From the NCBI GenBank assembly GCA_018821305.1, contig JAHJMN010000023.1:1-57723 (forward strand): 57,723 nucleotides of DNA. The letters are read 5' to 3'. The notes beneath the pieces were generated by a model, which worked only from the letters and a program-made list of their open reading frames with translations, made no database searches and had not been told where the DNA came from. A program made the position numbers and the translations under genes. Below are positions 5,322 through 52,702 of the stretch, piece after piece; the first letter of the stretch is position 1; each line of letters begins with the position of its first letter. This DNA is from Myxococcota bacterium. GTDB lineage: Bacteria > Myxococcota_A > Polyangia > HGW-17.

Positions 5322-5681
5322 TCACAAACCTGCCGTTCGCAGTAATCTTGGTATTGCGAGGCTGACAACCTTTCCCATGTTTGTGCGGTTCATATTAACT
5401 AAAAAACCCTGAAGTGCGCTTCCGTAATTAATTATAACTACGGCATTGTTCTGTTCCAGTTCCAGAAGAAAATATCTCCCCAGAGCCGGAAACTGCGCTG
5501 ATTTGAGGTTTGACTCAACAAATTCATAAAAATCATTGAAGAGTTTTGTTGCTGTTGGTTGACTGTTGAATCCTGCAATTGATATTCCTTCTTTTTTATT
5601 CCAGATATCCGTTGCAACTACTGCATTTTCAAGACTTTCACGAAGTTCGGCAACAAGTGTTTCCGCTGTTCTTAAATCCAT
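5322..5681 (-). CDS. Roadblock/LC7-like protein
   Basis: A 119-residue protein with AAGGAG 8 bases before its ATG. It has the roadblock/LC7 order: N-terminal helix (LVAELRESLEN), strand AVVATDIWNKKEGISIAGF, helix with FNDFYEFVESNLK, then strands YFLLELEQNNAVVIINYG and GFLVNMNRTNMGKVVSLAIPRLL. Roadblock proteins dimerise and partner Ras-like GTPases; MglB, the GAP for MglA in Myxococcus, belongs here. It is transcribed divergently from the sigma-54 activator at 6000, and a GTPase of the MglA type is encoded 4 kb away, which supports a shared regulatory role (inference). Sequence is divergent compared with the two clearer roadblock genes at 9013 and 12003. Confidence 0.65.
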   Translation of the reverse strand: MDLRTAETLVAELRESLENAVVATDIWNKKEGISIAGFNSQPTATKLFNDFYEFVESNLKSAQFPALGRYFLLELEQNNAVVIINYGSALQGFLVNMNRTNMGKVVSLAIPRLLRTAGL

Positions 5682-5999: not shown

Positions 6000-7376
6000 A
6001 TGAATGATGGCGTCGTTCTGGTAATAGATGATGAGAAAACTCTTTCGGAAATGCTTGGTCGAATTCTGACTTTTCATGGCTATCGAACATTTTTTGCTTA
6101 CAGTGCGAAAGAGGGTATTGAAACAGCGAAGAAGATTCTTCCGGATATTATTTTACTTGATTTAAAGCTTCCGGATCTGGACGGTATTGAGCTTATGAAG
6201 GCTCTTATGGACCTGAATTCTTCATTTCGAATTATAATTATAACCGCCCATGCCAGCGTTAAAAGTGCTGTAAAAACAACACAATTGGGCGCTCTTGATT
6301 ATATTGAAAAGCCCTTTGAACCCGACCGTCTTCTTCTTTCCATCCGAAATGCTCTTGTAGAAAAGGCCCTGGAAGATGAAGTAAATATTTACCGGCACAA
6401 TGCAACTTCTTTAAACCGGATGTCCGGAAAATCTGCAGTTCCTTCAGAATCAATGAAAAATGTGTATGATATTGCTCAGAAAGCTGCCAATTCTGACGGA
6501 GCAATACTTATCACAGGTGAAACAGGTGCTGGAAAAGATTTTCTCGCCAACTGGATTCATTCTCACTCGATTAGAAAAAACGGACCCTATTTTTCGCTGA
6601 ACTGCAGTGCAATATCAAAGACACTGGCAGAATCCGAGCTTTTCGGTTATGAACCCGGAGCCTTTACTGGAAGTTCCGGACGAAAGCGAGGACTTTTAGA
6701 AATTGCCGCAGGAGGAACGTTGCTTCTCAACGAAATTGGAGAAATGGATCTTCAAACGCAGGCGAAGCTTTTGACTTTTCTTGATACAAAATCCTTTTTG
6801 AGGGTTGGTGGAGACAAACCAGTCAAAGTTGATACTCGAATAATTTCAGCAACAAATCTTGACCTTTTGAAAGAAGTCAAAGAGGGAAATTTCAGGCAGG
6901 ATTTATATTACAGACTTAATATTCTTCAAATCCACCTGCCTTCTTTGCGAAAAAGAAAAGAAGATATTCCAGTAATTGCAATGCAAATTATTAATAACAT
7001 TGAAATGAGCATGCCGCATAAAAAAGATATCTCAATTACTACCCAAGCAATGCATATTCTGATGCAATATCAATGGCCAGGAAACATAAGAGAACTTCGC
7101 AATGCCCTTGAAAGAGCACTCATCCTGAGCGATGACGGCATCATTAAAAGCGAGGATCTTGTATTTTTAAATCCTGCCAGTCAAACCACAAGGTTGTCAT
7201 TTAATTTGCCCGAAGAAGTTCCTCTGGATGAAATGCTGGCAAATTTTGAAAGGGATGTAATCACTAAGGCCATTGAGTCTACAAAGACGAGAAATGCCGC
7301 AGCCAAAAAGCTTGGAATTACGCGACATTCTCTAACGCATCGTATTAAGAAACTTGGAATTGAACCTGATGCGTGA
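6000..7376 (+). CDS. NtrC-type sigma-54-dependent response regulator
   Basis: A 458-residue activator. The ATG at 6000 is preceded by GGGAG (6-base gap); a TTG 42 bases earlier is in frame but has no site. Receiver domain 1-120: acidic pocket DD (10-11), phosphoacceptor D54, T82, K104. AAA+ domain 145-375: Walker A GETGAGKD at 173-180, GAFTGS loop at 220-225, Walker B-like LLLNEIGEM at 241-249, and FRQDLYYRLN. Fis-type helix-turn-helix at about 430-455 (NAAAKKLGITRHSLTHRIKK). Such proteins open sigma-54 promoters when phosphorylated. Two odd points: Asn replaces the first Walker B Asp, and the loop ends GS rather than GA. The gene stops inside a 17-bp palindrome (7370-7386), and a sigma-54 promoter starts the next operon, so it most likely controls that operon. 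The cognate kinase may be the hybrid kinase at 14363. Confidence 0.9.
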   Translation: MNDGVVLVIDDEKTLSEMLGRILTFHGYRTFFAYSAKEGIETAKKILPDIILLDLKLPDLDGIELMKALMDLNSSFRIIIITAHASVKSAVKTTQLGALDYIEKPFEPDRLLLSIRNALVEKALEDEVNIYRHNATSLNRMSGKSAVPSESMKNVYDIAQKAANSDGAILITGETGAGKDFLANWIHSHSIRKNGPYFSLNCSAISKTLAESELFGYEPGAFTGSSGRKRGLLEIAAGGTLLLNEIGEMDLQTQAKLLTFLDTKSFLRVGGDKPVKVDTRIISATNLDLLKEVKEGNFRQDLYYRLNILQIHLPSLRKRKEDIPVIAMQIINNIEMSMPHKKDISITTQAMHILMQYQWPGNIRELRNALERALILSDDGIIKSEDLVFLNPASQTTRLSFNLPEEVPLDEMLANFERDVITKAIESTKTRNAAAKKLGITRHSLTHRIKKLGIEPDA

Positions 7377-7386
7377 TTTTCACGCA
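7370..7386. promoter_or_regulatory. Palindromic activator site, distal
   Basis: TGCGTGATTTTCACGCA is a 17-bp palindrome (7+3+7) whose exact reverse complement occurs again at 7479-7495. It overlaps the stop codon of the NtrC-type activator and is centred about 207 bp before the predicted start of the next operon, a usual place for a sigma-54 enhancer. Confidence 0.6.
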
Positions 7387-7478
7387 GGATGATTAAAAAT
7401 CACTCAACGACTAAAAGAATAGTGAGAACAAGGGGTTAAAGATTTCATTTTTATATCATGTTAGAAAACTGATTTTTT

Positions 7479-7495
7479 TGCGTGAAAATCACGCA
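7479..7495. promoter_or_regulatory. Palindromic activator site, proximal
   Basis: TGCGTGAAAATCACGCA, the inverted second copy of the palindrome at 7370-7386. The centres are 109 bp apart, close to a whole number of helical turns. This one is centred about 98 bp before the predicted transcription start near 7585. It is probably bound by the Fis-type domain of the neighbouring activator (inference). Confidence 0.6.
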
Positions 7496-7558
7496 TGAGA
7501 TTTAAAAATTAAAAACTTAGTTTATTGTATTTATTGAAATATTTTAAAAACACAAACA

Positions 7559-7574
7559 TGGCACACTATGTGCT
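7559..7574 (+). promoter_or_regulatory. Sigma-54 (-24/-12) promoter
   Basis: TGGCAC at 7559-7564 and TGCT at 7571-7574 match the consensus TGGCACG-N4-TTGCW at all positions except the seventh (A for G) and the first T of TTGC (G). GG and GC are separated by the required 10 bases. The predicted start is near 7585 and the first ATG of the operon is at 7598. Confidence 0.7.
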
Positions 7575-7597
7575 CTAGTTACAAAGAAGGTGCAGTA

Positions 7598-8230
7598 ATG
7601 AACACAATGCTGATTATTGAAGATAATAAATTGCTTGCTGAGTGCATATCCATGGTTCTGGAAAAGACTTTCCCGGATAAAGTTATTCTCGAAGCAAACA
7701 CTCTAAAAGATGGCCTGAAAATTGTGGATTCCATAAATCCGGATGTGATTATTTTAGATCATGTCTTTTCGGAAGGATCCGGGCTTGAAATTCTTAATAA
7801 TAATTCAGTTAAAGCGCATAAGCCGCAGATTATCTATACAAGTGGTTCTCTTGAACCCGAAGTAGTCAAAGAAATACAGTCTCTGGGAGTTAAAACCATT
7901 CTTGAAAAACCCTATGAAGTTGTAGATTTAGTTAAAATCATAAGTGGTTTTGAAAACAAAATGGGAGTATCCATTTCTAAAACGAATTTGGATTCTTCTT
8001 CGTTGAATAATATTGAAATACCTTTTGCAGCAAAGAGTAATCATTGGATTATCAACAGGCTATCCGCCATTTTAATCGCTTTTCGGTGCATGGAAAGCGA
8101 AGTACTTGAGGTTTCAGGAGAAATCAGCCCACAGGCAGAAGCTATTGCGAGATATTCCGATGAAATCACAAGTATAATTGGTGACTTGAGCAGGTATTTC
8201 AAAGAGCAAGGACACACAAAGGATGAGTGA
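7598..8230 (+). CDS. Response regulator with receiver and DHp-like helical tail
   Basis: A 210-residue protein; the ATG at 7598 follows GAAGGTG at a good distance. Receiver domain 1-118: acidic residues E8 and D9, phosphoacceptor D54 (in VIILDHVF), T81, K104. After a linker the tail (about 145-205) forms two long helices. The first contains HWIINRLSAI (from H149), which lines up with the H-box of histidine kinases (HDFNNLLSPI in the hybrid kinase of this window): His, then Asn at +4, Leu at +6, Ser at +7, Ile at +9. There is no ATP-binding domain. It could be a phosphotransfer protein of the receiver-DHp kind, or a dimerisation tail. First gene after the sigma-54 promoter; its stop overlaps the next gene by 8 bases. 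Confidence 0.75.
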   Translation: MNTMLIIEDNKLLAECISMVLEKTFPDKVILEANTLKDGLKIVDSINPDVIILDHVFSEGSGLEILNNNSVKAHKPQIIYTSGSLEPEVVKEIQSLGVKTILEKPYEVVDLVKIISGFENKMGVSISKTNLDSSSLNNIEIPFAAKSNHWIINRLSAILIAFRCMESEVLEVSGEISPQAEAIARYSDEITSIIGDLSRYFKEQGHTKDE

Positions 8231-8966
8231 GCAGGGAACGACAGTACTTCTGATTGATGATGATCCAGATATAAGTTGGATGATCAGTCGCTTTCTTGCC
8301 CGCTCCGGTTTTACAGTCACCCTTTGTGCAAATGGAAATGATGCAATTGAAGTTCTCCGCAACCGGGATTTCAATTTTGTAATCAGCGATATTCAACTTC
8401 CAGGCATAAATGGCATTGCAGTCCTTGAATGGATTAAAGCCAATAAGCCTGATATCCGAGTGATCATAATGACGGCATACGGCGCTGTTACAATAAAGCA
8501 AATCAGCATGGGAAAAGGAGCCATTTTGTACCTTGAAAAGCCGATAGATCCCTCTCTGATTATTGAAGTTCTCAAAAATGAAATAAAAAACGGAGAGGAA
8601 AAACTTTTTAAAGGAACTGCCTGTGATATTGAACTGCTTGAATATATACAGTTTTTACTTCTTACAAGAAAGAAAGTAAAGCTTCAGTTGTCATCGGACG
8701 GTAGTGATGCACTGATATACTTTGAATACGGGAAGGTAGTTCATGCAGAATACGGAAATTATAAAGGAATTGATGCTTTTTATGAAATCATCAAAACCTT
8801 TGAGCACGGTAGTTTTATTACAACTCCTATTCATGCATCACCGGAAGTAACAATAGAAAAACCCGGGGAATTCCTGTTGTTTGAAGCAGCAAGAATAAAA
8901 GATGAAGTCACATTTGGCGCAGGGGATGAAAATGACGAAGAACTGGAATTTGATATTTTTAAATAG
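8223..8966 (+). CDS. Response regulator with DUF4388 output domain
   Basis: A 247-residue protein. Receiver 1-120: DDD at 12-14, phosphoacceptor D56, T84 in MTAYG, K106 in EKP. The second half, about 128-205, has the DUF4388 (PATAN-like) pattern: FKGTACDIELLEYIQFLLLTRK, then a beta hairpin with ALIYFEYGKVVHAEYGNYKGIDAFYEII and FEHGSF. DUF4388 domains are found in PatA of cyanobacteria and in many Myxococcota and Deltaproteobacteria regulators, and are thought to mediate protein contacts in polarity and motility pathways. The C-terminal end is acidic (GDENDEELEFD). Translation is likely coupled to the gene before it. Confidence 0.85.
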   Translation: MSEQGTTVLLIDDDPDISWMISRFLARSGFTVTLCANGNDAIEVLRNRDFNFVISDIQLPGINGIAVLEWIKANKPDIRVIIMTAYGAVTIKQISMGKGAILYLEKPIDPSLIIEVLKNEIKNGEEKLFKGTACDIELLEYIQFLLLTRKKVKLQLSSDGSDALIYFEYGKVVHAEYGNYKGIDAFYEIIKTFEHGSFITTPIHASPEVTIEKPGEFLLFEAARIKDEVTFGAGDENDEELEFDIFK

Positions 8967-9012
8967 TGTTCGAGTTGATTTTTATAATTTTTCGGATGCT
9001 AACAGGTGAAAA

Positions 9013-9477
9013 ATGCAGGTACATCATAATGCAAAGGAAGCCCTCGATAAACTTGTTAACGACAGTGAGTGCATTACCGCACTGCTGATCTCCCGGGAAG
9101 GTGTCTCCATTGAAGAATCGGGCAACACTGGATACCTGAACACAACTGCCCTCGCTGCTTTGATTGCCGGTATGTTTACGGCGACAAGAGAAGTAGCCCG
9201 AATGGTGGGAGAAGAGCATTTTTCCATTTTACTTCAGCAAGGGACAAACCGTCATATCCATATTTCTTTAATTAATGAAACTGTGATGATGGTAATAATT
9301 TTTGAAGATTATCAGCGCATTGGAAAAGTCAGGTATGAGGCTAAAAAAGCCTCTGAAGTCATCGCCAATATCATGCAGCCGGAACCTGAGGCAAGCGTAG
9401 AAAAACTCAATGTTGCAGGTTTCAGAGAATATGCACTCAATCTTATAGACAGAATTTTTGATAAACCACAGGGATAG
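9013..9477 (+). CDS. Roadblock/LC7 domain protein (MglB-like)
   Basis: A 154-residue protein; AGGTG lies 5 bases before the ATG. Residues 1-120 are a clear roadblock/LC7 domain: LDKLVNDSECITALLISREG, then GNTGYLNTTALAALIAGMFTATREVARM, then FSILLQQGTNRHIHISLI, MMVIIFEDYQRIGKVRY. A C-terminal extension of 30 residues follows. It lies 10 bases before the MglA-like GTPase gene, the same adjacency as mglB-mglA in Myxococcus, so a GAP or partner role for that GTPase is a fair inference. Confidence 0.85.
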   Translation: MQVHHNAKEALDKLVNDSECITALLISREGVSIEESGNTGYLNTTALAALIAGMFTATREVARMVGEEHFSILLQQGTNRHIHISLINETVMMVIIFEDYQRIGKVRYEAKKASEVIANIMQPEPEASVEKLNVAGFREYALNLIDRIFDKPQG

Positions 9478-9487
9478 GGCTCAGGAT

Positions 9488-10069
9488 ATGCCGTATATAA
9501 ATTATGATAAACAGGAAATTGCATTCAAAATTGTATATTTCGGGCCTGGGATGAGTGGGAAAACTACAAATCTTATTAAAATTCATGAAATTCTTGATCC
9601 CCAAAAGTGCAGTGAAATGGTTGTTTTGGATACTGAAGAAGAAAGAACTCTTTTCTTTGATTTTCTTCCATTTGATCTCGGAAGCATCTGCGGTTTTTCC
9701 GTGCGATTTAATATGTATACAGTGCCGGGCCAGGTTCAATATGAAGCTTCAAGAAAATTGATTCTGGACGGAGCGGATGGAGTTGTTTTTGTAGCGGATT
9801 CTCATCCTTCAAAACGGGAAGAAAATCTTCTGAGTTATCAAATGATGACGGAAAACTTTGTTTCCCACGGGTTTGATCCCGTTACTTATCCTCTGGTACT
9901 CCAGTTCAATAAAAGAGATCTGGATCAGGTTATGAATATATCGGAAATGAATGCATCATTGAATAAAGGTGGACATAAAACTTTTGAAGCGGTGGCTCTG
10001 AAAGGGCAAGGTGTTATTGAAACAATTAAAGAAGTTTCAAAACAGATTGTTACGAGATTTGAAATTTGA
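9488..10069 (+). CDS. MglA-family Ras-like GTPase
   Basis: A 193-residue small GTPase starting at MPYINYDKQ, close in length to Myxococcus MglA (195). P-loop GPGMSGKT at 19-26, the MglA-typical TLFFDFLP at 54-61, TVPGQV at 78-83 in which Thr replaces the Asp of the DxxG motif just as in MglA, then the signature SRKLILDGADGVVFVADS, and NKRD at 141-144 for guanine recognition. MglA sets front-rear polarity in Myxococcus and is switched by MglB. The neighbouring roadblock and DUF4388 genes suggest a parallel polarity or localisation switch. It differs from MglA enough in the C-terminal half to be a paralogue; the name mglA is not assigned. Confidence 0.9.
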   Translation: MPYINYDKQEIAFKIVYFGPGMSGKTTNLIKIHEILDPQKCSEMVVLDTEEERTLFFDFLPFDLGSICGFSVRFNMYTVPGQVQYEASRKLILDGADGVVFVADSHPSKREENLLSYQMMTENFVSHGFDPVTYPLVLQFNKRDLDQVMNISEMNASLNKGGHKTFEAVALKGQGVIETIKEVSKQIVTRFEI

Positions 10070-10121
10070 TTCGTAAAATTTCTGAAATACAGGACAAGAA
10101 CTGATTCAATTGGAGATCATT

Positions 10122-10814
10122 ATGGCGATAACAGGTTCAATCAGCGATATCGGGATAATCGATTTGATTCAGTTTCCCCATAATAAAAAGAAAACCGGGG
10201 AAATGATTATAGTCAACGAAGATTTGGGAGAAATCAGATGTAATTATGTTGATGGTAGACTTGTTAATGTAAAAACTGATTACAAAACAGGTCTGGAGGG
10301 TCTTGTTGAAATAATCGATCTCACCAGTGGAGAATTTGAATTCAGAAACCAGACTACGGATCCTGAAATCCTGATTGATATGGATCTTCATCGGGCAATT
10401 ATGGTTGCCCTGAAACTGAAAGATGAAAATAAAAAGAAGAGCAAGGAGCTCGAATTACTCAAGAATATCAATTTTGATCATTTGTACAAACTTCTTGAAA
10501 ACATTATAGAAAAATCTGGGAATTTCATTCACTACGCTGTCCTTTCCTCCGCGGGTGTGGCTTTTAAATACTGGAGTTCTCCTGAAGCAAGTAATGATTT
10601 TGAAGCAATTGAAAGTACTGTAAGCCAATTCTGGACTTCAATAAAAAGATTTTCGCCGGGAAAGCTTCTCCTTGAAACCTCTGATTTCCTGATTAGTTCA
10701 ATTTCTGCAGGCGATCATGTTCAGATAGTCTTTTTCTCTCCCGTCGGTGTAAGCCCCGGAGCCGTAACAATGGCTTTATCTAAAATAATTGCATCTGTTC
10801 GGGGGGAATCATGA
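10122..10814 (+). CDS. DUF4388 protein with roadblock-like C-terminal half
   Basis: A 230-residue protein; the ATG at 10122 follows GGAG by 6 bases. Residues 1-105 are DUF4388: ITGSISDIGIIDLIQFPHNK, EMIIVNEDLGEIRCNYVDGRLVNV, GLEGLVEIIDLTSGEFEF. After a charged linker, residues about 120-230 (LLENIIEKSGNFIHYAVLSS ... GVSPGAVTMALSKIIASV) have the helix-strand-strand-helix order of a divergent roadblock domain. Such DUF4388-roadblock arrangements sit beside MglA-like GTPases in Myxococcota-type genomes. Its stop overlaps the next start (ATGA), so the DnaA-like ATPase is translationally coupled to it. Confidence 0.75.
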   Translation: MAITGSISDIGIIDLIQFPHNKKKTGEMIIVNEDLGEIRCNYVDGRLVNVKTDYKTGLEGLVEIIDLTSGEFEFRNQTTDPEILIDMDLHRAIMVALKLKDENKKKSKELELLKNINFDHLYKLLENIIEKSGNFIHYAVLSSAGVAFKYWSSPEASNDFEAIESTVSQFWTSIKRFSPGKLLLETSDFLISSISAGDHVQIVFFSPVGVSPGAVTMALSKIIASVRGES

Positions 10815-11983
10815 TCGATCCCGCTATTCGTCTTAAAAATGAACGGGAATTACTGGATTTTTTAACTTCCGGACTCATAAGAATGGAAGATGCCCGAAAA
10901 ATCCTCGCCTACTGCGAATTGGCGGGCTGTGATATTAAAACAGCCTTCAGAAAACTTGAAATTCCTGTTGAAACTCTGAATCCAGAGGGAACGACGACAA
11001 TTCCCCACCTGCATGAATTATTTCAGAAGCCCAACCCTGATCTTAAATTTGAAAATTTCATTTCATGTCCTGAAAATGAGTTTTCTCTTGAAATTGCAAG
11101 GTCTTTAATTGAAAAAAGGGAAAAGAATCTCTTTTATAACCCCCTTTATATTTATGGTAATATCGGTGTTGGAAAAACACACCTGTTAAGCGCTATATAT
11201 AATCAGTATCAGGATAAATCCATTTTCATTACAAGTCTTGAACTTAAAAATATTTATTCCGCCCATCCTAATGCCAGTAATTTTATTATCAATTATATCA
11301 ATAATTTTGCAATAATTTGCATTGACGATATTCAATTATTTGACTCCAGTGAACAGCTCCAACTTGAACTTTTTCAAATCTTTAACACTGCTCTGGCAGG
11401 AAAAAAACATGTTATTGTCAGTTCAGACGTTCCGCCCACAAGACTCAAAGGAATCGAAGAGAGACTTATTTCAAGACTGGGTGGTGGAGTAATTGCGAAT
11501 CTCGGAATGGGTGACAGCAGTTTTAAAAGACGAGTGATCGAGGGTATGGATAAAGAAGGTGTATTTCCTCCTTCAGTGACCGACTTTATTGCAAACCACA
11601 TTTTTGATAATATCAGGCATCTGAAATCAGTTATTCATCAATTACTTACCCTGAATGAAACAATGAAAATACCTCTAACGGTGGAAACCGCGAGATCATT
11701 CGCTCCAACAGGCCATGACTTGAATAACGCACCAGAGTGCAAAAACTCAGACCCAAACATTTCTGACAGCCGCCGAAAAACGAGAGAGCGATTTCGTCAC
11801 ATGGTTGAAAGTGCTGAAACCATGGAAGAGCAAAGACTTGCCATTGAAATCGCAATGAATGATCGCCTGCGAGAACTGCGGGAACTCGGGGAATCCGGAG
11901 AGGAATATGCAAAATTAAAAAAATCCATTGAGTTTATTCAATGCGGAGAAATAGGAAAAGCAATGGAGCTTTTCCAGATTTAA
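10811..11983 (+). CDS. DnaA/Hda-like AAA+ ATPase without DNA-binding domain IV
   Basis: A 390-residue protein. Residues 80-330 follow DnaA domain III: F-x-NFI ... NPLYIYGNIGVGKTHLL (Walker A 116-123), Walker B IICIDDIQLF, SSDVPPTRLKGIEERLISRL (DnaA box-VII-type region), and IFDNIRHLKSVIHQLL, the DnaA NIReLEG-type segment. The DnaA helix-turn-helix domain is absent; instead a charged helical tail follows (about 320-390). The first 60 residues (LLDFLTSGLIRMEDARKILAY ...) resemble the two-helix repeat of GspE/MshE N-terminal domains, some of which bind c-di-GMP. Hda and DnaA act in replication initiation; here the genetic context is signalling, so a chaperone or localisation ATPase seems more likely. 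It is coupled to the DUF4388 gene before it. Confidence 0.8.
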   Translation: MIDPAIRLKNERELLDFLTSGLIRMEDARKILAYCELAGCDIKTAFRKLEIPVETLNPEGTTTIPHLHELFQKPNPDLKFENFISCPENEFSLEIARSLIEKREKNLFYNPLYIYGNIGVGKTHLLSAIYNQYQDKSIFITSLELKNIYSAHPNASNFIINYINNFAIICIDDIQLFDSSEQLQLELFQIFNTALAGKKHVIVSSDVPPTRLKGIEERLISRLGGGVIANLGMGDSSFKRRVIEGMDKEGVFPPSVTDFIANHIFDNIRHLKSVIHQLLTLNETMKIPLTVETARSFAPTGHDLNNAPECKNSDPNISDSRRKTRERFRHMVESAETMEEQRLAIEIAMNDRLRELRELGESGEEYAKLKKSIEFIQCGEIGKAMELFQI

Positions 11984-12002
11984 AGAATATAAGGAGTTGA
12001 AA

Positions 12003-12350
12003 ATGTCAAACGTGAAAATGATTCTGAACGAAATCCTGAAAACTGACGGCATCCACGAAGCCCTCATTGTAGGAAGAGACGGTTTTGTTATTGAAGCTAC
12101 AGGCAATATGGAAGCGGATATGCTTGGTGTTGCCGTTTCCACTGTTATCGGATCCATCGAAAGTATGGGAAACAACACCAATCAAGGCAAATTGTTCGAG
12201 GTCATGGCTGAATATGACCAGGGTACAATCATTGTTGCTCCCGTTGGTCGTGACGCTGTTTTGGGTGTAACCGCAAAAGGTGGTGCAAACCTTGGTGCAG
12301 TGCGTTTTGCAGTCAAGAAAAATATCCGTGAACTTGAAAGAGTGCTTTGA
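12003..12350 (+). CDS. Roadblock/LC7 domain protein
   Basis: A 115-residue single-domain roadblock protein; AAGGAG lies 6 bases before the ATG. The order is textbook: MILNEILKTDGIHEALIVGRDG, VIEATG, AVSTVIGSIESMG, KLFEVMAEYDQGTIIVAPVG and LGVTAKGGANLGAVRFAVKKNIREL. It is the best-conserved roadblock gene of the island and the likeliest GTPase-regulating partner. A copy of repeat R1 begins just after its stop codon, which may end or weaken transcription into the next genes. Confidence 0.9.
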   Translation: MSNVKMILNEILKTDGIHEALIVGRDGFVIEATGNMEADMLGVAVSTVIGSIESMGNNTNQGKLFEVMAEYDQGTIIVAPVGRDAVLGVTAKGGANLGAVRFAVKKNIRELERVL

Positions 12351-12351
12351 G

Positions 12352-12489
12352 GGTTAATGTCCTGAAATTCAGTTTTTCAATTTAAAGAAAATTTTTCAGG
12401 ACAACAAAAGCAACGTTATAAATTTACTTGTAGTGGCCGGATAGAATTTATACTAAATTCTTCGTGAAGCGAATTTCCGGACACATCTT
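12352..12489. repeat. Dispersed repeat R1, copy 2 (short subtype)
   Basis: It lies within the operon-like run, between a stop at 12350 and the next ribosome-binding site. Ends are GGTTAATGTCCTGAAATTC and, on the other strand, TGTCCGGAAATTCGCTTC. The interior has TAGTGGCCGG, which matches the copy at 57587-57723 in reverse orientation rather than the AAATTGAGCATG subtype. A middle CAGGACA at about 12398 is the internal mark seen in all copies. Confidence 0.7.
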
Positions 12490-12507
12490 AATAAAAAGGA
12501 GATAGAA

Positions 12508-12969
12508 ATGTCAAAAACTATAGATGCAAGAGTTGTTCAAGGTGTCCTTTATGGAATTTATAAATCTCTTTATGCCGTAGCTGGAGCATCGTCCCCCGCG
12601 GTAATGAGACAAGCCGCCCCACATATTTTGACGGCTTTGAATGCTCTGGGAGTTGATTTTACCTGTGTGGATAATATCGAAAAACTTCAAAGTAAACTTG
12701 GTGAAACACTAACTTCCAGTGGAATGTGCGATTCCATCAAATTCAATATCGAAGGAAACATTCTGAAAGCTGAAATCACTAATTGTTCGTTTTATGATCT
12801 TACGGAAAAATTGAAAAGTGAAGGAATTCCACCATTTGGATGTCCTTTTGCAGCACTTACAATTGCAATTGCGGAAAAAAATCTCGGCAAACGCGCCCGA
12901 ATTAAAAATCTAGAACCTAAACCTGGTGGTAACCGTGGTGATACCCTTTTGGAAGTTGAATTATCTTAA
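12508..12969 (+). CDS. Hypothetical protein, possibly V4R-like
   Basis: A 153-residue protein with AAAAGGAGAT before the ATG. The N-terminal half is helical (VVQGVLYGIYKSLYAVAG ... APHILTALNALG). The second half has ITNCSFYDLTEKL and GCPFAALTIAIAEKNLGK, then GDTLLEVEL, the pattern of a V4R-type ligand-binding domain in which paired Cys lie near the end, but only two of the usual Cys are present. The assignment is tentative. It begins the group of genes that follow the R1 repeat and probably forms one unit with the next two. Confidence 0.5.
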   Translation: MSKTIDARVVQGVLYGIYKSLYAVAGASSPAVMRQAAPHILTALNALGVDFTCVDNIEKLQSKLGETLTSSGMCDSIKFNIEGNILKAEITNCSFYDLTEKLKSEGIPPFGCPFAALTIAIAEKNLGKRARIKNLEPKPGGNRGDTLLEVELS

Positions 12970-12979
12970 AGGATAGACA

Positions 12980-13579
12980 ATGTCCAGTTTCGCTTCAGAC
13001 CTAAAACTTGGTAAAAAGGAAGTTAAAGTTGTTTCCGAAACAACAGAAAGTGGACTGTTTCTAATCAGTCGGGTCATTTACAAAGGACAATCGGTTCTGT
13101 CTGTAAAAAACCCAGTAACCGAATGTGGCGGCGTTTCCCAGTATCACCAGCAGTTTTCTGAAAATGTTAAAGACAGAATTAATGAATTGTTTAAAAGTGT
13201 TACGGGCCGTGAACCTTCCCATGCAAATATGTGCTCGTGTCTCGCAAAAAATACGGAGTTTTCTCTGGTTGCTGTGGGTAACGATCCCTGGTTTTCCGGC
13301 GGAATTTCGTCACTTCCCTTTGTGGAATGGTCGTCCCAGAGTGTTAAAGCGTTTTTATTCTGGCTCCATATTCACGGTGCCTTTAGCGGTGAACATTTCT
13401 CACTAGGTTCACTTTCAAGATTTGTCATTTCAAATGAAGAAAACAACCATTTTATAATTCCTTTTGAAAAGAGTTGGGTTTTTATTTCTACAGAAAGCAC
13501 AATAAACCTCGGACAGAGTATACAATATGTTGAAAAAGCTCTGACCCAGTCATACTCAAGCCGGGATATAACAACTTGA
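12980..13579 (+). CDS. Hypothetical protein
   Basis: A 199-residue cytoplasmic protein with AAAGGA ahead of its ATG, 10 bases after the previous stop. I do not recognise it. Visible features are an N-terminal beta-rich part (VKVVSETTESGLFLISRVIYKG), a Cys pair in NMCSCLAKN around residue 85, and a C-terminal helix-rich end. The last 60 residues (HFIIPFEKSWVFISTESTIN) have a faint roadblock-like rhythm but no more than that. It is read 3 bases before the ankyrin gene, so the two are coexpressed. Confidence 0.5.
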   Translation: MSSFASDLKLGKKEVKVVSETTESGLFLISRVIYKGQSVLSVKNPVTECGGVSQYHQQFSENVKDRINELFKSVTGREPSHANMCSCLAKNTEFSLVAVGNDPWFSGGISSLPFVEWSSQSVKAFLFWLHIHGAFSGEHFSLGSLSRFVISNEENNHFIIPFEKSWVFISTESTINLGQSIQYVEKALTQSYSSRDITT

Positions 13580-13582
13580 TCC

Positions 13583-14374
13583 ATGAAACTGAAGCAGGAA
13601 ACTCAATCCAAAAGTTTTTTTGACTCCGTTGAAGAAGGCGATCTTCAGGAAGTCCTAAAGTATCTGAAAAGGGATCCCTCATGCCTGTTTTTAAGAAATG
13701 ATTATCAGGAAACTGCACTTCACAGGGCTGCTTTATTGGGAAATATCAAGTTAGTCATGTTGCTGAAAAACAACCAGAACATCCAAATGGAAGATATTTT
13801 TGGTTTTACACCCTTCGCGCGTGCAGCCATGAGCGGTCACAGGGATTTACTACCTTTTCTCGGCAACTTAACTGATACTCCGGATAAAAATGGTTCTACT
13901 CCCCTTATGTGGGCTTGTGCCAGACATCACTCAGATGTCATTTCTTATCTTCTCAAAGTAGGAGGCAATATTGATCATCGTAATTTGTTTGGTATGACTG
14001 CACTTTCAGAATGTGCCTTGCGAGGATACACACACCTGTGTCAAGTACTGCTGGAAAACGGTGCAATTATTGACATTCCCGATAACCATCTTCAAACGCC
14101 CCTTCACAAGGCCCTCTGGAAACAATACCCCGAGACAGCCTACTATTTATTAGATTCTGGGGCAGATGCAGATTTTGCTGACGAAAATGGATTTACCCCC
14201 ATTATGTGGGCTTCAAAATGGGGATTTGAAGAAGTTGTTAAAATTCTCATCGAGAAAGGCGCTAATGTTCATCAAACAAGCATCCGGGGACAAAGTGCCC
14301 TGATGGAAGCGGCAAATCGAGGACATGTGAACATATTAAAAATCCTTGAATCGATAACATGTTCAAGCTGTTGA
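13583..14374 (+). CDS. Ankyrin-repeat protein
   Basis: A 263-residue protein built almost wholly of ankyrin repeats. About seven are visible, marked by T(A/P)LHRAALLGN, TPFARAAMSGH, TPLMWACARHH, TALSECALRGY, TPLHKALWKQ, TPIMWASKWGF and SALMEAANRGH. Loops such as NGAIIDIPDN and GADADFADENG are standard. No signal peptide, so cytoplasmic; it is a protein-binding scaffold by family. It is the last gene of the run and its 3' end overlaps that of the histidine kinase on the other strand by 12 bases. Confidence 0.9.
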   Translation: MKLKQETQSKSFFDSVEEGDLQEVLKYLKRDPSCLFLRNDYQETALHRAALLGNIKLVMLLKNNQNIQMEDIFGFTPFARAAMSGHRDLLPFLGNLTDTPDKNGSTPLMWACARHHSDVISYLLKVGGNIDHRNLFGMTALSECALRGYTHLCQVLLENGAIIDIPDNHLQTPLHKALWKQYPETAYYLLDSGADADFADENGFTPIMWASKWGFEEVVKILIEKGANVHQTSIRGQSALMEAANRGHVNILKILESITCSSC

Positions 14375-17300
14375 TTCTGGAAATAAAAGTGAGATTTTTT
14401 CCATAAGTTCACTAACCCCAAATGGCTTTTGAATATACTGAACTTTGGATGATTCTGAAATCCTGTCCATAATTACATCACCTGAAAATCCCGTCATAAA
14501 CAAAACTTTGAAATCATGATGTTTGTCTCGTATTCTATGAAAAAGCTCATGTCCGGACATTTCCGGCATAACAATATCTGTTATCAGTAAATCCGGGTGA
14601 GAGGGTCTGACCATAATGTCTAAAGCATTCCGAGGATTATTAGTTCCCTGCACTTTATGACCAAATCGAGTCAGAATTCCATTAATAAGCTCTACAATTT
14701 CAATCTGATCATCACAAACAATTGTAGAAACCGCTGAAATATCACGTATTTTTGGACTTTCACCAGTAATTGGCTTTGCAGATATACCACGAGAAGCTGG
14801 AAATAGAATAATAAAGCTGGTTCCGATGGTTTTAGGTTGAATGATGATGTATCCATTATGCTGTTTAACCAGGCCGTAAACAGTAGAAAGACCCAGGCCC
14901 GTTCCTTCGGGCTTTGTAGTAAAAAAAGGCTCAAAAACATGGGCAAGGTGCTCTTTGGGTATACCTTCCCCCGTATCTGAAATTTCAATTTGGAAGTAGT
15001 TACCGGGAATAATTCTGGTCGTTTCATGAAATTCATTACCATCATAGTATTGAGTCTTTACTATAATAGAAAGTATTCCACCCGACTTCATTGCTTCTTT
15101 GGCATTTACTACCAGATTTAAAATTATCTGTTCAAATTGCGATTCGTCCGCATCTATTACAGTATTATTTGAAGCGATCTGCATCGTAAAATCAATTTCC
15201 TGCCCAAGAGTCTGACGAAGCATGTCTTCCATTTTTTCGAGAATATGGGTTGGATTTATCGTTTCAATACGAAGCATTTTTTTTCGACTGAACGCAAGTA
15301 ATTGAGCCGTCAGATTTTTTGCAGTATATGCTGATGTTTTTATTTTTTCCAGGACACTCCGGGTACGATTACCTTCAGGAAAATCCATGATTAAAAGGTC
15401 AGCAAACCCAATAATTGGGGATAGAAGATTATTAAAATCATGAGCGATACTTCCGGCCATTTTTCCAACTACCTCAAGTCGCTGAGAATTATTTAACTTG
15501 TCTTTAAGTAACTCCTGTTCTTGTTCCAGAAGTTCTCTAGAGAGAGCGCTACTTATTATTGAAGAGGCAGTACCAAGAGCGCTGATAAGTGCTCTGGAGG
15601 TTGATGCACCAAATTTTTCAAAAGCAATAAAACCTGGAATATCATTTCTTATTTTCAGTGGAAATATTATATCAGTTGTTTGATTTTTTATGCTATATCC
15701 AGATTTGTTAATTACAAGAGTTTGTCCAGTTTCAAGTTTGTCTTTGTGCACAGAGTGATTGATAGTCTTAATTATTTTATCGAAATAGGCCGCAATATCT
15801 TCAAGCTTGTTCTTTGTCCAGTATGATTTTATGCGGAATTGGTTATCCTCACGCAAACCAATTAATATTTTATCAAAACCTGCTGCATCAGCTATCTTCT
15901 CGAGGACAACTGCGGAATCAATAGTGCTTCCAAGGTTGTTTATAAAATATTCTGAAGCATAGGCTACAGCTTCAAGAATTTGATCTCTGACAACAATGGA
16001 TTTATGGGCATTAATTTGAAAAGACACATCACGCGAAATACCTATGAGAGCTTTATCATTGTTCCAGATTCCCTGATTAATAATAGTTTCCACTGGAATT
16101 ACAGTACTTTTCTTTGACAACAGAGGAATTGAAAACCTGTTTTCACCTGGCTTAATAGCCTCAAGCATTTGATATATTTCAAGTATATATTTGGGAGGAA
16201 AAAGAAAGCTAACATGTTTTCCTTTCAATTCGTCTTTTTCCCATCCAAGTCTCTTTTCAAGAATATTGCTGATAAAAAGAATCTTTCCCGATGTACTGAA
16301 AACATAAATCATGTCTTCGACATTGTTTAAAATAGTTGTGAGGTTTTCTTCCGTGGTTTTTAACTCAAGTTTTACCTGATAATTGTCAAGCATATCTACT
16401 ATTTGAGTTACAATATTTTCAATAAAACTTATGATTTCAGGACTTTTTTCAATTTGTTTTTGGAGAGAAGCGATAAAGCAAGCATAGTTTCCATTTCCCT
16501 TTGTAGTCGAAATAATTAAAACCGTCGATTTTTTCGGAATTTCCGAATTTCTTGGAGTTGGAATAATTCCGGAAATACCTCTCTGACACATTTCAAAAGG
16601 CAGGCTAAGTTGCAAAACATTATCAATAAGAGAATCCCTTTGCCCATGTTCCAAAACTGGAATAAGTTTTTTCTCTCCACGTTCAATTGAAAAAAATATT
16701 AAATTTTCAGCATTAAGCCACGAAGCCAATCCATCTATAAAACACTCCCAAACCAACAAAATATCTGATACATTTTTCAGTTGTTCCGATATATCTTTCT
16801 GTAATCTAAAACCTTTTTCAAAAAATTTTACCGAAGTATGATCCCGCACAGCAGCAATTATTGTTTGAGATTTATCGCCATTATTGATCATGCTCGCATT
16901 AAGTAAAAGATACCTTCTTTGATTATAAATATCAAACAGATACATTTCATAATCTATTACACTATTTTCCGTTTCAATTCTCTTAAAAAAATCTTTTACT
17001 TGATTCCGATCACATGCAAGATCGATTAGATGGAAATCAACAACCTGAGATTTTGAAAAACCAATGCTTTCTTCAAACGAAGAGGATACATCAATTATCT
17101 TACCAGTTAGGTCAAGCTCCATAAATATTTCATGTGAATATTCATATATTTGATTAAATTTGCTGCTAAGATTGGTTTTCTTTGAATCTGATTGTTTCAC
17201 TTCTTCCAGTCTTCTGGACGTTCCAATAATTTTTTCAGAATGGTCCAGCAAAACATATTTTCCTTGTGAATTTATCCAGTGTAGGGTTCCATCCTCTTTT

Positions 17301-17944
17301 TTTAACTGGTGCACTATATCAAAGCCGTTCTTTTTTTCGATACAACTACTTAAAATAGAAATTAACTTTGAAGAATCTGGAAACAAAGAAAGATCAATAT
17401 CTTTACCATGAATTGGAATATTCGGTTCAGGAAGCCATAAGTGAGCAGGATTACGAGAAAGCACAGTAAAAAATTGAGTTGTTAGATCAATTTCCCAAGC
17501 GGAAATATCTGCAGTTGATAGTAAAGCATCAAGTCTGTTTTGTAATGCATTAACAACCAGACATCCATTCAACTTTTCAACTTTAAGAACCGTTATAATC
17601 AGTTCATTATCATCCTCAGAAATCGGGACTTTGTATACTTCAACAAATTGACTCTCATCAAAGGAGGCATATATTTTTTCTTTAAAGAATTTTGCATCTA
17701 CTGGGGATCCGCAGATGCAACTCTGTCCACAGGAGGTTGTCCCTTTTATTGTGTCATTCACAGAACATTTTTTTTTGCACTCGTGTTGAAAAAGGAAACG
17801 TTTCAGAGAACAGTTAATTACATTGAATGTTTCTCTTTGATCAGAAATAAAGGCGGGAATATACAAATGTTCAATAATCTTAAAACAATCAGACAATCCA
17901 TGTTGAGTAGATAACGGCAAGTCTACTATCTTTATATCATGCAT
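14363..17944 (-). CDS. Hybrid histidine kinase with PAS/GAF sensors and receiver
   Basis: A 1193-residue soluble kinase without obvious membrane segments. N-terminal sensing part: a Cys-rich PAS-like domain (Cys45, 56, 60, 72, 76, 78), then PAS-like domains at about 125-375, a GAF-like region, another PAS near 530-650 (NVEDMIYVFSTSGKILFISN) and a second GAF near 655-800. Kinase core: H-box AHDFNNLLSPI with phosphoacceptor H835, N-box NLVVNAKEAM, G1 ISDTGEGIP, G2 GTGLGLSTVYGL. A C-terminal receiver has D1123 (in ITDIVMPEMSG) and KPFG. It converges on the signalling operon and overlaps the ankyrin gene by 12 bases. It may feed phosphate to the NtrC-type activator or to the receiver-DHp protein; that link is inference. 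Confidence 0.9.
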   Translation of the reverse strand: MHDIKIVDLPLSTQHGLSDCFKIIEHLYIPAFISDQRETFNVINCSLKRFLFQHECKKKCSVNDTIKGTTSCGQSCICGSPVDAKFFKEKIYASFDESQFVEVYKVPISEDDNELIITVLKVEKLNGCLVVNALQNRLDALLSTADISAWEIDLTTQFFTVLSRNPAHLWLPEPNIPIHGKDIDLSLFPDSSKLISILSSCIEKKNGFDIVHQLKKEDGTLHWINSQGKYVLLDHSEKIIGTSRRLEEVKQSDSKKTNLSSKFNQIYEYSHEIFMELDLTGKIIDVSSSFEESIGFSKSQVVDFHLIDLACDRNQVKDFFKRIETENSVIDYEMYLFDIYNQRRYLLLNASMINNGDKSQTIIAAVRDHTSVKFFEKGFRLQKDISEQLKNVSDILLVWECFIDGLASWLNAENLIFFSIERGEKKLIPVLEHGQRDSLIDNVLQLSLPFEMCQRGISGIIPTPRNSEIPKKSTVLIISTTKGNGNYACFIASLQKQIEKSPEIISFIENIVTQIVDMLDNYQVKLELKTTEENLTTILNNVEDMIYVFSTSGKILFISNILEKRLGWEKDELKGKHVSFLFPPKYILEIYQMLEAIKPGENRFSIPLLSKKSTVIPVETIINQGIWNNDKALIGISRDVSFQINAHKSIVVRDQILEAVAYASEYFINNLGSTIDSAVVLEKIADAAGFDKILIGLREDNQFRIKSYWTKNKLEDIAAYFDKIIKTINHSVHKDKLETGQTLVINKSGYSIKNQTTDIIFPLKIRNDIPGFIAFEKFGASTSRALISALGTASSIISSALSRELLEQEQELLKDKLNNSQRLEVVGKMAGSIAHDFNNLLSPIIGFADLLIMDFPEGNRTRSVLEKIKTSAYTAKNLTAQLLAFSRKKMLRIETINPTHILEKMEDMLRQTLGQEIDFTMQIASNNTVIDADESQFEQIILNLVVNAKEAMKSGGILSIIVKTQYYDGNEFHETTRIIPGNYFQIEISDTGEGIPKEHLAHVFEPFFTTKPEGTGLGLSTVYGLVKQHNGYIIIQPKTIGTSFIILFPASRGISAKPITGESPKIRDISAVSTIVCDDQIEIVELINGILTRFGHKVQGTNNPRNALDIMVRPSHPDLLITDIVMPEMSGHELFHRIRDKHHDFKVLFMTGFSGDVIMDRISESSKVQYIQKPFGVSELMEKISLLFPESTA

Positions 17945-17991: not shown

Positions 17992-18019
17992 AAAATAGTA
18001 CTTAATCTTTTGTTGTCAA
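17992..18019 (-). promoter_or_regulatory. Sigma-70-type promoter for the hybrid kinase
   Basis: On the minus strand TTGACA (18019-18014) and TATTTT (17997-17992) have a 16-base spacer; the kinase ATG follows about 45 bases later. Confidence 0.45.
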
Positions 18020-18178
18020 ACAAAAATTTTATCTATAATAATCTTCAGTATTATCAACAAATATTGTAGACTTTTATCATTCAAGGAATTCTGTTTATTT
18101 GAAAGTTTATGAGGCAATTAAAATACAAAGGCGGAAAGTTCAAAGGCAAGAACGTATCCTTACACATTTATTTGAAAG

Positions 18179-18251
18179 TGGAGCTGAAGGGACTCGAACC
18201 CTCGGCCTACGCATTGCGAACGCGCCGCTCTCCCAACTGAGCTACAGCCCC
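18179..18251 (-). tRNA. tRNA-Ala(CGC)
   Basis: Minus-strand cloverleaf of 73 bases: acceptor GGGGCTG pairs with CAGCTCC and contains the G3-U70 pair that marks alanine tRNAs; D arm GCTCAGTTGGGAGAGC; anticodon loop TTCGCAA with anticodon CGC; T arm ending GGTTCGAGTCC. The CCA end is not encoded. The anticodon stem closes with G-U pairs at both ends, which is unusual but tolerable. Confidence 0.93.
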
Positions 18252-18265
18252 GGAACATGACTCAT

Positions 18266-18293
18266 GTTGTACCCGTCATCCGAATTTGGTCAA
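18266..18293 (-). promoter_or_regulatory. Promoter for tRNA-Ala
   Basis: On the minus strand TTGACC (18293-18288) and TACAAC (18271-18266), spacer 16. A perfect 15-bp palindrome (18254-18268, AACATGACTCATGTT) overlaps the -10 end and the start region. Confidence 0.45.
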
Positions 18294-18305
18294 GCTGATT
18301 TTCTA

Positions 18306-18334
18306 TTGTAAATTTCTAAATCTTGCTTTATACA
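18306..18334 (+). promoter_or_regulatory. Promoter for the Cys-rich lipoprotein gene
   Basis: TTGTAA at 18306-18311 and TATACA at 18329-18334 with a 17-base spacer, about 60 bases before the ATG at 18397. Confidence 0.45.
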
Positions 18335-18396
18335 AATAATGGCCCTTTTAAAGAGCCTTTTGATGCACCATAACTTTAACTAAAGGAGGAGATAAT

Positions 18397-18834
18397 ATGA
18401 AAAAGCTACATTCTTTTGGAATTTTGGCAGTTATAATTGGATTGATTTCCTGTGAGAAGCATGATGACAAGTCAGAAAAACTTTGTGAACGATACTCCGA
18501 GTGCAACGCTATGGAATATGATGAATGCCTTTCTTCAATTGGCTCCCTGTCCCTTTCCAGTGATTGCTATGACTCAATGATGGATACGACTTGCGAAGAC
18601 CATTTATCTGCGCCACCGTCCTACTTCGGAACATGCTTTCCGTACTGCTCTGTGGAATCGAGGGAATGTCGAAATGACAAAATTTACCTCTGCAATGGAA
18701 CCTATGAAATGGTTTATAATTGCGAAAAAGTATGTGAATATGCCTACGATGGAGCAGAGTATACCGGGACTTGTGGTACAGTTGCCCCCAACGGTGAAAT
18801 TTCCGCGGAAGAAGTCTGCTGGTGTCAGTATTAA
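18397..18834 (+). CDS. Cys-rich lipoprotein, hypothetical
   Basis: A 145-residue protein with AAGGAGGAGA before the ATG. The leader MKKLHSFGILAVIIGLISC gives a good lipobox at Cys19. The mature part has about 16 Cys spread as CERYSEC, C-x-SS, SDCY, TCEDH, TCFPYC, ECRNDKIYLCNG, NCEKVC and CWCQY, suggesting a disulfide-stabilised small secreted domain. The same style (many small Cys-rich anchored proteins) is common in Myxococcota. No family recognised. Confidence 0.65.
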   Translation: MKKLHSFGILAVIIGLISCEKHDDKSEKLCERYSECNAMEYDECLSSIGSLSLSSDCYDSMMDTTCEDHLSAPPSYFGTCFPYCSVESRECRNDKIYLCNGTYEMVYNCEKVCEYAYDGAEYTGTCGTVAPNGEISAEEVCWCQY

Positions 18835-19035
18835 TACAAATGATTTCCACATGTTCTGTCTGGTATTTAATAAAAAATCAATCCAGGCCTCTTGCTGAAT
18901 AATACGATTATAAAGAATTGCTTCAGGCAAGAAGACAGGATCAGTGCGTAAACATTCAAAATTAATGTATAATTACAAGTGGCGGGATAAAATTATTCAA
19001 TTTCCTAATTACGATTTTTTTATTCTGCAAGCGAT

Positions 19036-19986: not shown

Positions 19987-20104
19987 TATTATCTCCTTTG
20001 TTGAAATGACCACACACCCTGAAATACAGATAGCAATCAATGAAAATTTCTTCGTTTTTTCTTTTTAAACGTTATTTATGTAAATTACAATCCAAATATG
20101 GCAT

Positions 20105-20259
20105 TTTCCAAGAATAGCATGTTCCTGCTGCAAATTGCTTCACGAAAGAATTTCACTGACTTTAAGAATGAAAACATTGAAATTTTTAAAGTGTTCTGAA
20201 CAGCATGTTTAGGAAAACATGCTCAATTTTGAAAAAATTGAATTTCCGGACAGTAACTA
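20105..20259. repeat. Dispersed repeat R1, copy 3 (degenerate at one end)
   Basis: Read on the minus strand, the element begins TAGTTACTGTCCGGAAATTC at 20259 and continues through the AAATTGAGCATG hairpin segment to about 20105, where the distal end is worn. The opening TAG is also the stop codon of the crystallin gene. It includes TTCGTGAAGC words typical of the short subtype, so it looks mosaic. Confidence 0.6.
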
Positions 20260-20880: not shown

Positions 20881-20928
20881 TGTCCACTCCTTTTCTTTCT
20901 GCCGGCATTCCGGCTTTTACTGAAGTTA

Positions 20929-20956
20929 ATTATAAATAAAAATCTGAAAGTCTCAA
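20929..20956 (-). promoter_or_regulatory. Promoter for the crystallin-like gene
   Basis: On the minus strand TTGAGA (20956-20951) and TATAAT (20934-20929) with a 16-base spacer, about 50 bases before the ATG. A GCCGG/CCGGC hairpin lies in the leader. Confidence 0.5.
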
Positions 20957-21051
20957 TCGGTTTTATAACCAAATTCTGTAGGCTTTGATTGAAGAAAATC
21001 ATTTTTTATTCAGATTTTTTTATTTTTTTTTGGAAATTATTGAAAATAAAC

Positions 21052-21081: not shown

Positions 21082-21102
21082 AATATCTAACCGATAGTCA
21101 GA

Positions 21103-52310: not shown

Positions 52311-52337
52311 ATGTATACCTCGAAGCCTCGAAGGCGG

Positions 52338-52690: not shown

Positions 52691-52702
52691 GAGAAACCCT
52701 CA

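Follow-up and report, generated by a model that had tools for sequence, protein, structure and literature searches.

MglA is the best-studied bacterial polarity switch of the Ras-like kind and, to our knowledge, most of its partners outside a few model species are unknown. We analysed a stretch of 57,723 nucleotides from a Myxococcota bacterium (contig JAHJMN010000023.1 of assembly GCA_018821305.1, hereafter the window; its own genome, of 5.2 Mb, is G000, and G- and L-numbers denote the genomes and loci compared), which carries on the + strand at 7598-12969, behind a sigma-54-type site, a core gene set built around an MglA-type GTPase. As in the MglA-MglB module of Myxococcus xanthus and Thermus (with RomR, RomX, RomY, SgmX and FrzS), the same GTPase motifs are found, together with an adjoining roadblock partner and receiver proteins beside the GTPase. 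Unlike that module, the one described here adds an ATPase with a DnaA core, a protein joining a PATAN and a roadblock domain (PATAN-roadblock), a protein of predicted Bet3-type fold (orf8), a DHp phosphotransfer-like protein (RR1) and a sigma-54 activator of its own.

MglA/MglB genes beside PATAN genes have been reported before (Wuichet and Sogaard-Andersen 2014, PMC4316618, citing Makarova 2006); a search of that article by term finds 'DnaA' 0 times, and its accessible part does not describe the conserved multi-gene set found here. According to the same part, the actinobacterial conservon (CvnA-D) likewise has kinase, MglB-type and MglA-type genes in one operon but, in contrast to the module here, PATAN, ATPase and Bet3-fold genes are absent from its core of four proteins. 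In cyanobacteria, type IV pili are a target of PATAN regulators; the phototaxis proteins PixE, PixG and LsiR, likewise receiver plus PATAN, are thought to act on the pilus apparatus, and the portion of the review consulted (PMC7690835) mentions no MglA cluster with a DnaA-like ATPase. In M. xanthus, two PATAN proteins are named in the consulted portion of a pilus study (PMC11580455). TRAPP (Bet3/TRAPPC3 plus longin), Ragulator and the Asgard TRAPPC3/roadblock proteins resemble the module in that a predicted Bet3-type fold lies here too beside roadblock proteins and a small GTPase; unlike them, the module is bacterial, and its orf8 gives no sequence match to TRAPP or V4R models. A search of open-licence literature did not find this gene set described. 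What is new is the DnaA-core ATPase with its conserved tail, orf8 with its predicted Bet3 fold, A/T-centred palindromes confined, in the window's family, to the operon and the DHp-like histidine domain of RR1, the linkage of PATAN and MglA being known before. The 'undescribed localisation or switching system' of the initial annotation is supported as an unreported version of an MglA switch, and not as regards the MglB/MglA genes beside PATAN genes, which had already been reported (PMC4316618, accessible part).

Our preferred explanation, held with moderate confidence, is that these genes are inherited together as a single signalling unit in which an MglA-like small GTPase comes with dedicated regulators. 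It would most likely be a phosphorelay-driven MglA switch that acts via PATAN proteins, probably on type IV pili, and that uses a repurposed DnaA core as an assembly ATPase; its output may be localisation. The gene set, its conservation and co-occurrence, the regulatory sites and the domain make-up of the proteins were read directly from sequence.

Gene content and conservation of the module

The core genes and their control region are as follows (E-values in brackets; DUF4388 is taken by us to be the PATAN domain):

6000-7376, + strand: NtrC-type sigma-54 activator with receiver, Sigma54_activat and Fis-type helix-turn-helix domains (PF00158, 2.5e-62; PF00072, 1.1e-26; PF02954, 9.7e-9)
7370-7386: palindrome TGCGTGATTTTCACGCA, A/T-centred form, candidate activator site
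7479-7495: palindrome TGCGTGAAAATCACGCA, A/T-centred form, candidate activator site
7559-7574, + strand: sigma-54-type promoter site TGGCACACTATGTGCT, 10/12 consensus positions
7598-8230, + strand: RR1, receiver plus DHp-like domain with a conserved histidine, phosphotransfer candidate (PF00072, 4.7e-13)
8223-8966, + strand: RR-PATAN, receiver plus PATAN (DUF4388) domain (6.5e-26 and 1.1e-11, respectively)
9013-9477, + strand: MglB-type roadblock protein with a conserved C-terminal segment (PF03259, 1.3e-9; NCBIfam Thermus-type MglB model NF052242, 8.7e-18, 64.9 bits against a model cut-off of 200)
9488-10069, + strand: MglA-type GTPase with catalytic motifs (phmmer to T. thermophilus MglA, 2.7e-56)
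10122-10814, + strand: PATAN-roadblock, DUF4388 plus roadblock-like domain (PF14332, 3.4e-10; C-terminal half aligned by hhalign to the second roadblock family, 1.9e-6, probability 89.7)
10811-11983, + strand: DnaA-like AAA+ ATPase that ends in a conserved helical tail and lacks the DNA-binding domain of DnaA (PF00308, 1.2e-29)
11997-12350, + strand: Robl2, second roadblock protein (PF03259, 1.2e-14)
12508-12969, + strand: orf8, predicted TRAPPC3/Bet3-V4R fold (model with a predicted local distance difference test score, pLDDT, of 84.3)

All genes named in the initial annotation (receivers, roadblock, GTPase, DUF4388 proteins and DnaA-like ATPase) are present, with sequence matches for each, and the activator, the two palindromes and the protein at 12508-12969 lie within or beside its span as further elements. 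Its count of two roadblocks falls short, as there are three roadblock domains (the MglB-type protein, the C-terminal half of PATAN-roadblock and Robl2). The C-terminal half of PATAN-roadblock gave no hhalign match to the MglB family (E 0.19).

The ATPase was tracked with a profile of its last 72 residues (A3), which found it in 11 of the 317 class genomes. A phylum sample of 377 genomes gave 4 matches (G000 and G089, both also class matches; G199, outside the class matches; and G233), and the order of the Desulfomonile metagenome-assembled genome (MAG) G590 gave 2 among 18 genomes, G590 itself (two copies) and G592. With the tail-only match in G233 (E 4.9e-5, no Pfam match) counted as chance and G593, the same genome as G199, counted once, the family comprises 15 loci in 14 genomes of two phyla. 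The match in G089:C239 is partial, and the searches labelled no gene in L039. Row L038 (partial ATPase) was omitted from A1 and A5 and rows L061 and L064 from A5, while the cut locus L074 entered the protein comparisons only for RR1, MglB, RR-PATAN and the GTPase.

Neighbourhoods were read with hidden Markov models made from the first eight loci. The PATAN-roadblock gene lies directly upstream of the ATPase at 14 of the 14 loci whose upstream side is visible (G005 is outside the 14, as its contig begins within the ATPase gene), and the GTPase directly precedes PATAN-roadblock in 12 of 13 loci where this can be seen, two regulator genes intervening in L068. The order RR1, RR-PATAN, MglB, MglA, PATAN-roadblock, DnaA-like ATPase is exact at 10 of 13 readable loci, or 11 if L066, where RR1 and RR-PATAN are fused into one gene of 485 residues (7444-8901), is counted; L064 is without RR1 and L068 is rearranged. 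The fusion supports the idea that RR1 and RR-PATAN work together. The Desulfomonile MAG G590 has two whole copies, one of which (L113) reads kinase-like gene (520 residues, so called by position alone), activator, RR1, RR-PATAN, MglB, MglA, PATAN-roadblock, ATPase, orf8, Robl2 and ankyrin. L067, L071 and L073 belong to one genus; here the genes after the ATPase encode an additional receiver protein, with a DUF4388 match in L033 (on the contig of L073), and a kinase-receiver, and two of these three genomes carry Robl2 and orf8 at other loci. The gene order that the initial annotation proposed to look for in other genomes is thus conserved over genera, families and two phyla, and the ATPase was not found elsewhere; neither outcome named there as refuting was observed.

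The PATAN-roadblock stop and the ATPase start overlap by 4 bases (ATGA in the window), and such an overlap is present in 8 of 12 loci checked, one of the eight (L066) at an assumed TTG start. This suggests coupled synthesis, and we therefore read the ATPase as a partner of PATAN-roadblock. Pairwise protein distances over 13 loci are correlated (r 0.89 for GTPase/PATAN-roadblock, 0.77 for ATPase/PATAN-roadblock and 0.62 for GTPase/ATPase), with 0 of 2000 permutations as high for each pair, and module proteins are 20-62% identical across loci of the two phyla. The distribution is patchy yet tightly bundled, as for a transferable or often-lost module. In summary, it is well supported that the genes form one system.

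The four MglA motifs, GPxxSGKT, RTLFFDF (with the switch I arginine), PGQ (which replaces DxxGQ) and NKRD, are present in all 14 module GTPases read, from the window and 13 other loci; that of L064, not caught by the motif pattern, is outside the 14, and the GTPase of the distant L106 is without two of the four. The closest solved relatives of the window GTPase are MglA of T. thermophilus and M. xanthus. By its motifs and its adjacent MglB homologue (recognised by a model match under the cut-off), it belongs to the MglA small GTPases. All eight MglB-family proteins aligned keep a C-terminal segment (FKEYALNLIDRIF-like). In the consulted part of a study of M. xanthus MglB, a C-terminal helix gives exchange activity (PMC6785124), and by analogy the segment of the module MglB may serve likewise.

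Further genes of the window are:

12980-13579, + strand: orf9, no family match, no relatives seen in the other loci read
13583-14374, + strand: ankyrin-repeat protein (PF12796, 2.8e-58)
14363-17944, - strand: PAS hybrid histidine kinase with HisKA, HATPase_c, receiver and PAS domains, candidate sensor
1585-2796: AAA_14/DUF4143 ATPase gene, a side gene without link to the module

The PAS hybrid kinase is convergent with the ankyrin gene, with a 12-base overlap, and may be part of the module; kinases flank other module copies too. The ankyrin-repeat gene is the last gene in several other copies, and at several of the other loci a homologue of the NtrC-type activator adjoins the module. To the right of the module (18000-22000) the G+C content climbs from about 0.38 to 0.43, so that the genes may lie on an acquired segment. 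A small gene at 5322-5681 (- strand) is divergent from the activator; a by-eye impression that it encodes a roadblock protein was discarded, as Pfam gave no match. Five transfer RNA genes lie on the - strand at 52336-54309.

Transcriptional control and the phosphorelay candidates

The sigma-54-type site of the window ends 23 bases before the RR1 start codon, and sites matching 10 or more of the 12 positions are expected by chance about 0.014 times per 380 bases on one strand. Matches reach 10/12 in the window, 11/12 in L065, L066, L070 and L072, and 12/12 in L113 (Desulfomonile); the distance from site to start is close in L065 and L066, over 300 bases in L072 and 130 bases in L113. No site of 10 or more of 12 was found in the operon head of L077, a locus without the ATPase. 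The sigma-54 control claimed in the initial annotation is supported for the window's family and for the Desulfomonile MAG, and does not extend to every locus (6 of 14 heads).

The palindrome TGCGTGAWWWTCACGCA lies upstream in the window (two copies, 7370-7386 and 7479-7495), in L065 (one) and in L066 (two). In its A/T-centred form, GCGTGANNNTCACGC (GCGTGA-N3-TCACGC) occurs at this operon only, in G000 (2), G006 (2) and G003 (1), and was not found in the other five of the eight family genomes; G005 has the module, with the operon head off the contig read. When any centre is allowed, the genome-wide counts of GCGTGANNNTCACGC in the eight genomes are 3 in G000, 3 in G006, 1 in G003, 1 in G004 and 0 in the others, and the off-operon copies have the centres CGG in G000 (C145), ACC in G006 and ACC in G004. 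The off-operon copy of G000, GCGTGACGGTCACGC with its G/C centre, lies at 1649-1663 of L115 (G000:C145:86148-86162). The site, the activator gene and the upstream palindromes are found together in the window, L065 and L066, which makes each a putative sigma-54-controlled operon; L072 and L113 have the activator and a site of 11-12/12 without these palindromes. The activator, if it binds the candidate palindromes, seems to have one target, because the A/T-centred sites in the window's family occur only at this operon.

The C-terminal half of RR1 aligns with the HisKA domains of two nearby kinases, and its histidine is kept in 12 of the 13 sequences so aligned, the exception being one of two RR1 genes in L076. 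A Pfam scan found no HATPase_c domain in the window RR1. With a DHp-like helix pair, a histidine and no ATPase domain, RR1 has the features of a histidine-containing phosphotransfer protein. Its pattern H-x3-N-x-[LF] presumably resembles that of Spo0B, and a phosphorelay through RR1 is the natural reading.

Such proteins could also belong to a conservon-like transcriptional signalling cassette, in which the MglA/MglB pair tunes kinases and the output is gene expression via the NtrC-type activator rather than a spatial switch. We consider this possible but rather unlikely. Each locus has several receiver proteins, a histidine-bearing DHp protein and often a kinase, as would suit a cassette of this kind, and conservon operons join kinase, MglB-type and MglA-type proteins (PMC4316618, accessible part). 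However, the gene set differs from CvnA-B-C-D (no profile search for CvnC was made), and, because no candidate site in the window's family lies away from the operon, the activator seems to switch the module on rather than to be its output. Each copy also has two PATAN domains, which suggest a different output, and no DNA-binding domain was found when the ten operon proteins were scanned with Pfam.

Robl2 and the predicted fold of orf8

A Foldseek search with the predicted orf8 model retrieved mouse Bet3 (1wc8; E 4.4e-4, template modelling (TM) score 0.68), and VIA-align superposed the model on a TRAPPII chain over 145 of 153 residues (Z 10.8, root-mean-square deviation 3.1). TRAPP-type chains hold ranks 1-24 (Z 9.4-10.8), followed by BcsD (8.9), YslB (8.8), guanylate cyclase (8.6), H-NOX (7.8) and PoxR/MopR (7.5), so that less than two Z units separate the best TRAPP chain from the families that follow. 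By its predicted fold, orf8 would belong to the Bet3/V4R superfamily, a similarity that says nothing of function. Of eight orf8 members, none matched the TRAPP or V4R Pfam models (E up to 1), and a PDB sequence search with orf8 gave no match up to E 10. Six of the seven relatives are 61-72% identical to the window copy and the seventh is 38% identical; the cysteines C93 and C112 are invariant in all eight.

The orf8 profile matches 8 of the 317 class genomes, all among the 11 ATPase carriers (hypergeometric 7e-14, relatedness of genomes ignored), and outside the class it matches G590 (two copies) and G592. Robl2 adjoins orf8 at 12 of 13 orf8 loci, L076 being the exception, and the two also sit together at second loci in G051 and G074. 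The profile search found no orf8 in the Calditrichota MAG of L077. In the phylum sample around G590, 4 of 297 genomes match, G590 and three distant ones. The distant L106 (4858-7781), from this phylum, has a GTPase, a roadblock protein, an unknown, PATAN-roadblock and an orf8-like gene without an ATPase, and in the distant L105 Robl2-like and orf8-like genes adjoin; the link between roadblock, Bet3-fold, PATAN and MglA proteins may therefore be older than the ATPase.

The fold also allows orf8 to be viewed as a small-molecule sensor in the manner of V4R or H-NOX, which would make the module a ligand-gated motility control with no exchange-factor role. This is unlikely in our view, and partly compatible with the MglA switch proposed above. 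V4R, H-NOX and PoxR/MopR domains share the predicted fold (Z 7.4-8.6), the two invariant cysteines are in keeping with a sensor, and binding of hydrophobic ligands has been proposed for V4R domains (PMC2253512, consulted part). On the other hand, the TRAPP-type chains rank above all of these (next best 8.9), fold likeness again showing no function, and Robl2 is a constant partner of orf8, as longin and Bet3 folds pair in TRAPP.

The DnaA-like ATPase and the proposed working of the module

The ATPase matches DnaA above any other family: TIGR00362 (DnaA) gave 161.5 bits (cut-off 343.9) against 96.2 bits (cut-off 194.8) for TIGR03420 (Hda), and Foldseek placed the predicted model (pLDDT 78.7, predicted TM score 0.57) on DnaA domain III (2z4r, 8bv3) with TM 0.77-0.78 by target length, against 0.58-0.68 for Hda. 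It shares the AAA+ core of the DnaA clade with DnaA and Hda but is without DnaA domain IV, has its own C-terminal tail and is found only in the MglA cluster. No DnaA C-terminal domain is among the Pfam matches listed for the window ATPase, and the DnaA DNA-binding signature, searched as a pattern, is absent from 13 of 13 ATPases and present in the six true DnaA proteins aligned with them; a different, conserved helical tail replaces the DNA-binding domain. The true DnaA of the window genome is a separate protein of 439 amino acids on another contig (G000:C194). The ATPase thus has the AAA+ domain of a replication initiator without its domain IV and is not the main DnaA of its genome, and it is not classed as Hda, its model score being under the cut-off.

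Several ideas and lines of evidence were discarded. That the ATPase is a stray DnaA paralogue was rejected, given a separate DnaA in the genome and the constant link between the ATPase and PATAN-roadblock genes. Whole-protein isoelectric points are lower than those of the six DnaA proteins, and were dropped as evidence against DNA binding since the AAA+ cores overlap. Basic residues before Walker B of DnaA bind single-stranded DNA; their apparent loss in the ATPases was not used, as the window genome's own DnaA also looks odd there. A by-eye likeness of the N-terminal region to the small N-terminal domain of pilus and secretion ATPases was not matched in Pfam.

The closeness to DnaA, together with a Walker A lysine and threonine and Walker B aspartates that are invariant in all 11 aligned ATPases, would also suit an Hda-like replication regulator, which would tie replication start to a polarity or cell-cycle state read by the GTPase module. 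We find this improbable: the ATPase occurs in just 11 of the 317 class genomes and always with PATAN-roadblock where the locus can be read, it has no DnaA DNA-binding domain in a genome with a true DnaA elsewhere, and no Hda-type clamp-binding motif was seen by eye in the N-terminal alignment.

In the phosphorelay-driven MglA switch that we favour, a sensor kinase would phosphorylate the NtrC-type activator, which would then bind the palindromes and turn the operon on through its dedicated sigma-54 control. Phosphate would also run through RR1, by its receiver and its histidine-bearing DHp domain, to RR-PATAN. The MglB-type protein would cycle MglA between GTP and GDP, and GTP-bound MglA and the PATAN proteins would position a machine at the cell surface or gate it, the likeliest candidate being type IV pili. 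The DnaA-like protein, a DnaA AAA+ core after loss of its DNA-binding domain, would be bound to PATAN-roadblock. Rather than initiating replication, it would serve as a scaffold, switched by ATP, for assembling or resetting the complex of PATAN-roadblock and MglA. Robl2 and orf8 may work together, perhaps forming a platform that senses ligands or resembles an exchange factor. All contacts between the proteins, the route of the phosphate, the action on pili and the part played by the ATPase are what we infer here.

Several observations weigh against this scheme. By eye, 7 of 11 ATPases keep the arginine-finger position and 9 of 11 the sensor II arginine, which means that not every member of the family may hydrolyse ATP; because the Walker residues are invariant, nucleotide binding looks more constrained than hydrolysis. 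The pilus link is drawn by family analogy only. PilT is above cut-off in 22 of 25 genomes and missing in G005, G006 and G007, and two module genomes, both incomplete, are without it; since the 22 have it with or without the module, PilT does not discriminate and was set aside as evidence for a pilus role. Eight of the 14 operon heads scanned have no sigma-54-type site of 10 or more of 12, and the profile search found no orf8 in 4 of the 14 ATPase genomes (G063, G068, G508 and G199). Lastly, the Calditrichota MAG locus L077 (2084-4595) has MglB, MglA, PATAN-roadblock and Robl2 in a row with no DnaA-like gene, a minimal form in which the ATPase is dispensable to the core. Although L077 and L106 are related clusters without it, a loose neighbourhood, in which the ATPase merely rides along with an ordinary MglA cluster, is very hard to reconcile with the complete PATAN-roadblock linkage in two phyla at 20-62% protein identity, the overlapping frames and the correlated distances.

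A bolder version, which we hold only tentatively and consider doubtful, is that the module is a bacterial counterpart of TRAPP/Ragulator: a GTPase switch would be regulated by a roadblock and Bet3-fold complex from the same operon and run by a DnaA AAA+ machine, formerly a replication initiator, that now works on envelope protein complexes. If so, the grouping of roadblock, Bet3-fold, PATAN and MglA genes without the ATPase in L106 would be the older core. According to the consulted part of a study of Asgard MK-D1, GTPase genes do not as a rule share operons with genes for roadblock, longin or TRAPPC3 proteins (PMC10933270); because that study could not link GTPases to their regulators by operons, a predicted Bet3-fold/roadblock pair beside a small GTPase bears on how the folds of eukaryotic GTPase regulation came together. 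For MglA itself, the cluster supplies a defined set of partners that has stayed together in two phyla, and the DnaA core seems to have departed from replication, which would give the DnaA clade a new role.

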